64,000 bases of DNA. Source: Acidobacteriota bacterium. GTDB lineage: Bacteria > Acidobacteriota > Thermoanaerobaculia > Gp7-AA8. Positions within the stretch are counted from its first letter, which is position 1. Every line of letters starts with the position of its first letter. The translations under genes and the position numbers were made by a program. The notes under the pieces were generated by a model that was not told where the DNA came from, ran no database searches, and saw only the letters and a program-made list of their open reading frames with translations. The DNA is taken from the NCBI GenBank assembly GCA_003223645.1, contig QHVT01000006.1, positions 248,001-312,000 of the forward strand, read 5' to 3'. Below, piece by piece: positions 39,572 to 44,507 of the stretch.

Positions 39572-40783
39572 TCACTCGAATGCCTTCGCGCAGTCCGTCC
39601 CCGGGGGCAGCGTCCCCTTGAACACGGTTGGTTCCGGCTTCGCGGGATTGATGCCGGTGTAGGTCGTGACGACTTTGGTGAAGTCGACCCACGTCGCGAA
39701 TTCGGCGAGTTGGGTGTGCGCGTCTTTCGCACTCGGAGGGGCATCGCCGGACAGCGAGTACAGCCGCAGGCGATCGATGACGAAGGTCAAGCCGTCGCAG
39801 AACATTGGAACGCCGCGGTCGGGGATGGCGAGGAATGCGTCGATCGCTTCTTTGTGCTGGCCGAGGCGCGCGAGGTGTTCGCCGCGGATCGCGGCGCCGT
39901 CGGGAATCCACGGCATCCAATCCATCAGGTGCTTCGACCAGTTGTGCAGTCGATCGAGCTCGCCGCTGCGCAGCAGCGAGTACGCGGCAGCGATCGCAGC
40001 GATCGGGTCGTCGAGCTTCTGCTCGAGCATGCGCTCGGCGCTGACGGCTTCTTCGCGCGCGGCGCGATTTTGCTGATAGCCGAGGAGCAGCGTGGCGTCG
40101 GCGTTTTCGAGGTGGATGTCGATCCAGAAGCGATCGGCTTCGCGGCGCATCGTGAGGATACATCCGTGATGTCGCGACACCGGCAGCGCGATGTTGACCG
40201 GCGCGCGCGACGGCTGCACGCACTGCACCCAGCGCGTTTCCGCGGCGGGCGCGATCACGTACTCGACGATGTCATTCGACTTTTGCGTCGACGCGATCGG
40301 CAGCGCGATTTCTTTGAGCGTCTTGCGCAGCGGATTGCCGGCGAAGCAGCGCAGCACACCTGCCGGCTGCGGTGCGATCCAGACGTCGTTCGGCATCGGC
40401 GACGACAACGCGAATTCGTTCGGATCGGGCTTGCGAATGTAGGAGCGGCGGCGAACGCGTTTCGCCACGACTGGATTCGGCGCGCGCTGCTGCGCGACGT
40501 ACGCCGGCACTTCCGCGGCTTCGACCGGCGGCGTCTGCTCGTCCTCGCCGCGCAAGTCGACCGAACAATTCGGAACATCAGCGCGCGCTTCGAAGACGCG
40601 TACGATCTCCTGTCCGGCCGGCAATCGGGCGGTCACGACGTACGTGCCGGGATCGAGCGACGCGCCTTCCGACGACATCATCGTCTTCACGAGCTTCAGC
40701 TCCGGCGTGTGGATCAGCACCGGCACGCTCGCGTTCTCGAAGCGCTTGCTGCCGAACGGACCGCGGAACGTGAGCCAGGTCAT
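39572..40783 (-). CDS. Hypothetical caspase-partner protein
   Basis: MTWLTFRGPFGSKRFENASVPVLIHTPEL...; start overlaps the caspase stop by 4 nt; no family recognised. Confidence 0.65.
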   Translation of the reverse strand: MTWLTFRGPFGSKRFENASVPVLIHTPELKLVKTMMSSEGASLDPGTYVVTARLPAGQEIVRVFEARADVPNCSVDLRGEDEQTPPVEAAEVPAYVAQQRAPNPVVAKRVRRRSYIRKPDPNEFALSSPMPNDVWIAPQPAGVLRCFAGNPLRKTLKEIALPIASTQKSNDIVEYVIAPAAETRWVQCVQPSRAPVNIALPVSRHHGCILTMRREADRFWIDIHLENADATLLLGYQQNRAAREEAVSAERMLEQKLDDPIAAIAAAYSLLRSGELDRLHNWSKHLMDWMPWIPDGAAIRGEHLARLGQHKEAIDAFLAIPDRGVPMFCDGLTFVIDRLRLYSLSGDAPPSAKDAHTQLAEFATWVDFTKVVTTYTGINPAKPEPTVFKGTLPPGTDCAKAFE

Positions 40784-41973
40784 CCGCCCACCTTCACCTT
40801 CATCTGGAATCGCGGGAGCCGCGGCTTCACGATCGTCCCGCCTTTGAACGGCTTCAGCGTCGCGTCGGCCGGCTGCACGTCGTACGTGTAGAAGCCGCCT
40901 TTCACATTGAAGCCGAGCGGATTCGGCGTGACCTTGTCGATTTGATACGCGGGCGGCGCGCCCGGTGCCGTCACGCTGAAGCTGCACAGCTTCGCCGCGG
41001 TGTCGGGATCGATGCGCACTTCGCAGTCGACCGGCGGCGACTCGTCAAAGTACGCGATGACGATGTCGCTGCCGACGGTGATCGGCAGGCATTGCTGCTC
41101 GCCGGAGTGTTGCAGGTTCACAGCGTCCACCGCCGACTGAATCGATGCCTTGAGCGACGCCGTTGTGACGCGCCATCGCGCATCGTCATCCTCGGACGGC
41201 ACGGCAGCGACGCGATCGAGGCAGTCCGTCAGCGCAGCGCTGAACAGTGTCTGCCCGCCGCGTACAGCGAACGCGCTCGATCCGGGAATCGCGGCATAGA
41301 AGATGAGCTGCGAGCGATCGTCGCGGCTGTTCTTGTCGATGTTCCAGAGGTCGCCGGTGTTCATCCAGTCGCGCTTCTGGAATTCCTTGTCCGGCATGCG
41401 GCAGGCGTCGAGGAAGTAGAGCTGCCGGTTGGCGATTTTTTTTGCGAGGTCGCTCGGCGGCGCCATGCCCGCGATGATCTGCGCGACTTCTGCCGTATTA
41501 ACGAGCGATCCGCCGGCGTCGGGATCGCCAAAGTCGTCGAGCAGCAGCACCGAGTCGTTCTGCCGCCGCTGCACGCCGTGACCCGCGAAATACAGAACGG
41601 TCATCGCGTCCGCATCGTTCGCGAACGAGCGCCACTCCTTCAGATTCGTGACGAAGTTCTTGCGCGAGCAACGCTCCGCCTTCGCGAGCTCCGCTTCTTT
41701 CGCGAGCTCGTCGGCCGACGGCGACAACAACAGATGCACCGTCGCGAGCGGCAGCGGCAGTCGCTTCGCTGCATCGGCGGCGAGCAGCCACTTGTAGAAG
41801 AGATACGCGCTCATCGCGGTCGACGTGAGCTGTTTGAGGTCGAACATCGGATCGGCGGGCTGCGCAGCAGGATCGCCGTCTTTCAGATGGCGATAGAAAC
41901 TGACGCCGCCGATCAGCGCGTGAATGCCGGGCGCGCCGCCGAGGTCATTGCGTCGATCGAGGATCAACGTCAT
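40780..41973 (-). CDS. Caspase-fold peptidase
   Basis: IHALIGGVSFYRHL; MTVLYFAGHGVQRRQNDSVLLLDDF (His); NRQLYFLDACRMPDKEF (Cys). Confidence 0.88.
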   Translation of the reverse strand: MTLILDRRNDLGGAPGIHALIGGVSFYRHLKDGDPAAQPADPMFDLKQLTSTAMSAYLFYKWLLAADAAKRLPLPLATVHLLLSPSADELAKEAELAKAERCSRKNFVTNLKEWRSFANDADAMTVLYFAGHGVQRRQNDSVLLLDDFGDPDAGGSLVNTAEVAQIIAGMAPPSDLAKKIANRQLYFLDACRMPDKEFQKRDWMNTGDLWNIDKNSRDDRSQLIFYAAIPGSSAFAVRGGQTLFSAALTDCLDRVAAVPSEDDDARWRVTTASLKASIQSAVDAVNLQHSGEQQCLPITVGSDIVIAYFDESPPVDCEVRIDPDTAAKLCSFSVTAPGAPPAYQIDKVTPNPLGFNVKGGFYTYDVQPADATLKPFKGGTIVKPRLPRFQMKVKVGG

Positions 41974-44173: not shown

Positions 44174-44507
44174 GACTGCTCCTTTCGCAACGTCGATGGC
44201 GGATGACTCGCATCGCGGTGATGACGAGCATCAACGCGACGCCGATCCAGGTGAGCAACGGAATGGACGCGAGGCGTCCGACGGCGATGATCGCGCCCGC
44301 GCCGATTGCAAGCGCGCGCGGCTTCAGGGTGAACGCGACGACGATGACGAACGCGATCGCAAGCGCGTCGAGCAGCGGAGCGGAAGGCAGCGCGATCCCC
44401 GCTGCCGCGAGCAGCGGCAGAAGACAGAGCGGACACTTCGGGATCGCCAGCACGGCGAGCGGTCCCGCGAGCGCCGCTCCACGCGTGACGACCGTGGAGG
44501 CCTTCAT
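44166..44507 (-). CDS. Small multi-TM protein with CPLC motif (possible metal transport)
   Basis: LAGPLAVLAIPKCPLCLLPLLAAAGIALP...; 3' end overlaps the hemocyanin-like start by 8 nt. Confidence 0.7.
   Translation of the reverse strand: MKASTVVTRGAALAGPLAVLAIPKCPLCLLPLLAAAGIALPSAPLLDALAIAFVIVVAFTLKPRALAIGAGAIIAVGRLASIPLLTWIGVALMLVITAMRVIRHRRCERSSHA

Follow-up and report, generated by a model that had tools for sequence, protein, structure and literature searches.

The stretch of DNA considered here, called the window, comprises 64,000 nt of the contig QHVT01000006.1 (assembly GCA_003223645.1, positions 248,001 to 312,000 of the forward strand) and belongs to the 6.38-Mb genome (G000) of an Acidobacteriota bacterium of the class Thermoanaerobaculia. 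Its element of interest is a cassette of five minus-strand genes running from 44507 to 39572, which encode a small membrane protein with a CPLC motif, an arthropod-type prophenoloxidase (PPO), a free protein resembling the PPO N-domain (hcN), a caspase and a fifth protein of 403 aa. The features, in the order of transcription, are:

44166..44507, minus strand: small membrane protein with a CPLC motif (open reading frame), overlapping the PPO gene by 8 nt
42281..44173, minus strand: arthropod-type prophenoloxidase/hemocyanin of 630 aa, with an N-domain (about residues 41-135), a copper domain and an Ig-like C-domain
44055..44084, minus strand: gate motif 1, LEALG (residues 35-39 of the PPO), upstream of the N-domain core
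43743..43772, minus strand: gate motif 2, LEALG (residues 139-143 of the PPO), between N-domain and copper domain
41945..42271, minus strand: hcN, a free N-domain-like protein of 108 aa, by homology to the PPO N-domain
40780..41973, minus strand: caspase (PF00656) with a C-terminal all-beta Ig-like domain, CanA-like by profile and model
39572..40783, minus strand: CanB-like fifth protein of 403 aa, with an ATGA overlap with the caspase gene

The original prediction described a five-gene operon. The genes are real and tightly packed, while the fifth gene had been started at 40987 in the list of open reading frames, which is too long because the start in its relatives overlaps the caspase stop by the 4-nt ATGA, an arrangement recurring in other cassettes and placing the start at 40783. 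The CPLC gene, although a real open reading frame, is the least conserved partner, with a weak match in two loci (L007 and L008); that its product supplies copper or redox/thiol equivalents is a guess. A sigma-70 promoter scan found none.

The reading of 42281..44173 as an arthropod PPO/hemocyanin along its full length is borne out by the open reading frame, profile matches, database matches and a structural model. Pfam assigns Hemocyanin_M (3.4e-36, 125 bits versus a cut-off of 20.8) and Hemocyanin_C (2e-32, 113 bits versus 26.4) together with Tyrosinase (7e-8), while a Hemocyanin_N match was not reported in the Pfam scan. The best phmmer matches in the PDB are Manduca PPO1 (1e-77) and Limulus hemocyanin (4e-71), and a profile built from 62 bacterial relatives reaches an E-value of 1e-132. 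The AlphaFold2 model (predicted local distance difference test score, pLDDT, 90.3; predicted template modelling score 0.92) has its best fold matches in Limulus hemocyanin and insect PPO, which superpose along the entire chain with TM-scores of about 0.7-0.8. All six copper ligands that had been recognized by pattern, H164/H168/H199 and H312/H316/H351, are invariant in the 62 aligned bacterial PPOs, as are Glu297 and Phe53; the latter aligns with the placeholder F49 of Limulus hemocyanin, and the N-domain is helical in the model (residues 55-126). By every feature testable here the protein is a genuine member of the arthropod-type hemocyanin/PPO superfamily, and a chance resemblance to hemocyanin is rejected by the Pfam, PDB and full-length fold matches. 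Sequence and model predict a zymogen-like PPO, which by its activation site is not an insect PPO, as no R-F dipeptide was found before FSLF when its N-terminus was read.

The fold alone does not tell an oxygen carrier from an enzyme. The closest match of the bacterial PPO profile is Limulus hemocyanin, an O2 carrier, and Glu297, which by mapping of the numbering through the alignment corresponds to Glu364, named as the key catalytic residue of Anopheles PPO8 (PMC4700666), is no discriminator either, as a Glu occupies this position also in Limulus hemocyanin. An O2-binding hemocyanin that serves as O2 store or redox sensor is nevertheless very improbable, as the predicted gating by a protease at two sites, discussed below, suits an enzyme better and as the gate motif is common to LodA and nuclease effectors.

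Bacterial PPOs constitute a broad family, in which 389 clusters were found, with a sporadic distribution in 1/401 genomes of the phylum, 2/153 of the class, 2/121 and 2/201 of two other groups and, above the cut-off, 1/401 of another phylum; phage records contained no PPO homologue. In an unrooted tree that includes five arthropod chains (three complete and two partial), the arthropod sequences form one separate long-branch clade (SH-aLRT 100) beside 53 bacterial sequences. With these five chains and the root unknown, a recent transfer from an arthropod is unsupported.

The linkage of PPO and caspase, which the original prediction had proposed to survey, recurs in a second copy and on several distant contigs. 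The order PPO, hcN, caspase and fifth gene is found in the window, L018, L007, L008 and L009, and in L016 from the PPO C-terminus onwards, whereby L018 is a second cassette copy in the window's own genome with a PPO about 50% identical to that of the window, and L007 and L009 are closely related. L005 and L006 represent the window itself in metagenomes and were excluded from counts. L010 lacks hcN but has the other three genes, and L003, L014, L015 and L017 show a partial cassette up to the contig end. Contigs of the same length suggest further likely pairs of PPO with hcN (P0003/P0124, P0004/P0125, P0025/P0126) and of PPO with the fifth gene (P0005/P0146, P0013/P0151, P0015/P0145). On the other hand, four PPO genes with mapped surroundings (L004, L013, L026, L028) are not part of a cassette.

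The neighbouring protease had rightly been called a caspase, with a Pfam match to PF00656 (2.8e-10) and an invariant His132/Cys191 dyad. The 32 best PDB matches of its model, which is of moderate quality (pLDDT 66), all belong to the MALT1 caspase, in nearly every case together with its Ig domain, and MALT1 is likewise reported as the top structural match of KaeCanA, the caspase of the antiphage system canu (Tuck et al. 2025, PMC12799240). In canu, CanAB activates the gated metallo-beta-lactamase (MBL) pro-nuclease CanC, both gate loops of which hold conserved glycines, and mutation of either predicted gate site of KaeCanC abolishes defence against T4 (PMC12799240). Profile comparison by hhalign connects the caspase with the set of proteins at the CanA position (probability 100, E 4e-47, 349 columns) and the fifth protein with the set at the CanB position (probability 99.7, E 1.3e-25, 155 C-terminal columns); a precomputed annotation of the fifth-protein homologues is PF27295.1. 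A weak sub-threshold match was all that connected the locus with an EACC1-type caspase system, which was rejected.

A profile search with the fifth gene in the 153 class genomes recovered two loci, L035 and L036, where caspase and fifth gene occur without PPO and are followed by an MBL-fold gene, so that canu-like caspase/CanB-like/MBL loci exist in the window's own class. The same caspase/hypothetical/MBL order, which is the canu architecture (PMC12799240), is present in four annotated plasmid loci of Sinorhizobium, Bradyrhizobium, Streptomyces and Agrobacterium. In PADLOC, the MBL proteins of L035, L038 and L028 score as LmuA/Avs1a/RTasMBL, which are gated-nuclease systems of PMC12799240. 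No MBL gene was found in the window cassette by open reading frames, Pfam and locus comparison; since the defining nuclease CanC is absent and a PPO is present instead, the cassette is not filed as canu.

The connection between the two effector types is a short peptide. Two copies of the motif LE-x-[LM]-G bracket the N-domain in PPOs of the cassette lineage, in the window at residues 35-39 and 139-143. Among the 40 closest PPO relatives the strict form LE[ASPGTE][LM]G occurs in the first linker of 27 and in the second linker of 22, compared with 2/70 more distant PPOs that have it in both linkers and no occurrence in the remaining approximately 62,600 aa of these proteins. In all six reading frames of the window the strict motif occurs three times, twice in the PPO linkers. 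Residues 32-40, which include motif 1, are the sole internal segment of the model with pLDDT below 50, and the block 131-140 before motif 2 has a mean pLDDT of 61. Where the motif deviates, it tends to do so in matched pairs, such as two copies each of GVVTLGA (L018), GVAVLGA (P0018) and AAQGA (P0012), and LEAFG/VEVFG in P0025. The two sites co-vary within proteins, with none of 20,000 permutations reaching the similarity of the own pairs.

Both gate loops of the CanC-type MBL proteins closely resemble the PPO linker peptide, with KIESLGAKQG/PGVESLGAL in L038, DLEEFGVAQG/DIESYGAI in L039, DRDVFGAVEG/PGIEHFGAV in L040 and DLESYGGRQG/AGLESLGRR in L035. The motif is further shared by the ferritin-like protein (PGGLESLGPP) and the LodA protein (GALEPLGVAP) encoded downstream in L008, each time near a terminus. 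A precedent for the presumptive scissile bond comes from Runella, where a caspase-like protease cuts bacterial gasdermin after Leu with Gly in P1' (PMC9079055, PMC9612521). Cutting by an Arg/Lys-specific metacaspase was considered and discarded, as a consistent basic site was not seen in the PPO linkers. The location of the sites also bears on a role of the caspase in destruction or downregulation of the PPO. Crayfish proPO has predicted caspase-1 sites inside the protein, after residues 363 and 389, and cutting there could lower its activity (PMC3983073), while in the bacterial PPO the two sites lie on either side of the N-domain and outside the copper and C domains, which makes an inactivating protease a most unlikely interpretation.

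The free N-domain-like protein had been recognized as such, and pairwise BLASTP confirms its homology to the PPO N-domain (2e-8). At the placeholder position hcN has a Tyr, with FSEY in place of the PPO FSLF, and all hcN proteins aligned or listed read [FY]S[ED]Y with the Tyr present, as compared with F-x-x-F with the invariant Phe53 in the PPOs. The caddie protein of Streptomyces tyrosinase places Tyr98 in the active-centre pocket (PMC6312201). By analogy hcN probably acts as caddie, plug/decoy or regulator of the copper site; it too is a separate small protein, with a Tyr that is predicted to sit in the dicopper pocket, and differs from the caddie in being a paralogue of the PPO N-domain.

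On sequence and model grounds we consider it probable that the locus is a caspase defence cassette of a canu-like kind, with a gated pro-phenoloxidase in place of the gated CanC pro-nuclease. In the resting state, the PPO N-domain would insert Phe53 into the dicopper pocket. Upon a trigger, presumably phage, that would be sensed probably via the CanB-like partner, the caspase would cut both LE-x-L|G sites, free the N-domain and open the copper site. The activated PPO might then turn phenols or tyrosine into o-quinones, and the ensuing redox damage and cross-linking would stop the infected cell by arrest or death. Whether this is a bacterial immune system working in the manner of arthropod melanization, in which the caspase excises a plug domain from the PPO, with the shared peptide permitting the swapping of effectors between pro-phenoloxidase, LodA oxidase, ferritin-like protein and MBL nuclease, we regard as evenly balanced; a shared recognition peptide combined with such a swap would mean that one protease type commands either an oxidative burst or DNA destruction. 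The original prediction of a protease-triggered phenoloxidase is well supported by its context, namely the linkage, the flanking motif sites and the motif in gated nucleases, and none of the outcomes that it had named as refuting turned up; it had missed the motif and the canu relative.

A number of observations weigh against this interpretation. The canu loci compared were recognized by architecture and profile and are not the KaeCanABC sequences themselves. In the window, the neighbours of the cassette are housekeeping genes rather than a defence island. The insect enzyme is cut upstream of the placeholder, which may not remove it (PMC4700666). The permutation test for co-variation of the two sites ignores relatedness. 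Chelicerate hemocyanins have RLKNVG/RLKGVG at the aligned position of motif 1, which may therefore be ancestral in part, and several PPOs of the gate lineage have divergent sites (VVTLG, VAVLG, AAQG) or lack a visible site 1, as for example P0041 and P0042. The chelicerate RLKxVG and the cassette PPOs far from the consensus would equally fit a docking or structural element, through which caspase and PPO associate with cleavage elsewhere or none at all. We judge this unlikely, as the same peptide appears in unrelated folds of such operons, in MBL loops, the LodA tail and the ferritin-like N-terminus, as the PPO motifs lie in linkers of low pLDDT and as either gate-site mutation in KaeCanC leads to the loss of defence described above.

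A further point against a defence cassette is that the PPO adjoins LodA without a caspase in L013. This locus (L013:9958-14781) combines PPO with LodA, an FAD protein and a ferritin-like protein, and in L008 (6313-10758) a ferritin-like protein, a LodA-type oxidase and an FAD protein follow the cassette with its caspase. This company would be in keeping with oxidative biosynthesis or surface modification, such as pigment formation, cross-linking or peptide modification, with PPO, LodA and ferritin-like protein as the enzymes and the caspase needed for their maturation only. There is some chance, albeit a small one, that this applies; a LodA gene was not seen in the cassettes of the window, L018, L007, L009 and L010, canu nuclease loci have this protease pair and this motif, and presence is sporadic in class and phylum.

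With respect to its genomic position, the cassette is an insert between genes named from sequence as pyruvate kinase (37770-39203) and DAHP synthase (44793-45860). The two genes are neighbours without the cassette in G412 of the same genus and in G043 and G030, other family members, with a gap of 957 nt in G412 and of about 130 and 111 nt in G043 and G030, compared with about 5.6 kb in the window. Between cassette and DAHP synthase lies an element of about 160 bp (44636-44796) that resembles a miniature inverted-repeat transposable element, with 31-nt terminal inverted repeats and CTAG at both ends, adjoined by a further 28-nt inverted repeat (44556-44637).

Related loci show additional genes. 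After the second cassette copy (L018, G000:C10:152500-172000) a large CHAT-domain protein is encoded at 14013-17132 (E 7e-42), and a CHAT gene is likewise located downstream in the Agrobacterium canu locus L041. In L007 (11005-14640) and L009 (11573-15715) the CanB-like protein is a fusion that also contains a region resembling metallophosphoesterases and hydrophobic segments that probably span the membrane. On a Rhizobium indicum plasmid (L028, NZ_CP054035.1 128895-148532) a PPO gene is situated downstream of an S8 protease and a gated-nuclease-type MBL gene, near a Shedu-like gene. This PPO is possibly paired with a different protease; its candidate gate sites are only loosely similar to the motif.

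In comparison with KaeCanABC (PMC12799240), the window cassette has in common the MALT1-like caspase with an Ig-like C-terminal domain, the homologous partner at the CanB position, tight gene overlaps and an effector with two linker sites of the same E-x-hydrophobic-Gly peptide, and differs in its effector, a type-3 copper pro-phenoloxidase instead of an MBL pro-nuclease, in the location of the effector gene upstream rather than downstream of the caspase pair and in the extra free N-domain gene. The cassette would work like canu with another effector. With the arthropod PPOs (Manduca PPO1/2, Anopheles PPO8) it shares the three domains, the six His, the placeholder Phe, CDCGWP and YPDKRPMGYPFDR in the C-domain and a predicted zymogen nature; differences are the bacterial origin in a separate clade, an identity of 26-29% in the fold alignment and predicted cuts before as well as after the N-domain, whereas serine proteases cut insect PPO at R|F in the pro-region, a site that the window PPO lacks. 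The analogy to the arthropod cascade drawn in the original prediction consequently applies to the mechanism, while the protease is not homologous. As in the bacterial gasdermin-caspase systems, a caspase-like protease would activate a neighbouring effector, with a Leu-Gly bond cut in Runella, although there a pore former is cut near its C-terminus and here an oxidase has predicted N-terminal cuts.

In the literature searched, nothing relevant on bacterial hemocyanin and no description of a combination of PPO and caspase was found, and neither of two eLife surveys of caspase conflict systems contains the word tyrosinase or oxidase. With an arthropod-like PPO beside a caspase in a soil bacterium and the ends of its plug domain marked by the gate peptide of an antiphage nuclease, the cassette looks like a counterpart of the trigger of insect melanization. 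It joins protease-triggered phenoloxidase, a hallmark of arthropod immunity, with caspase-gated antiphage effectors, two fields unlinked in that literature. If the interpretation is true, oxidative copper/quinone chemistry would join the effectors of bacterial immunity as a new class, protease gating of pro-phenoloxidase would have its own bacterial form, the free Tyr-bearing N-domain would be a detachable plug of the copper site, and LE-x-[LM]-G would allow further caspase substrates to be predicted from sequence. The disputed need to remove the placeholder Phe for phenoloxidase activation would become testable in a simple bacterial enzyme.
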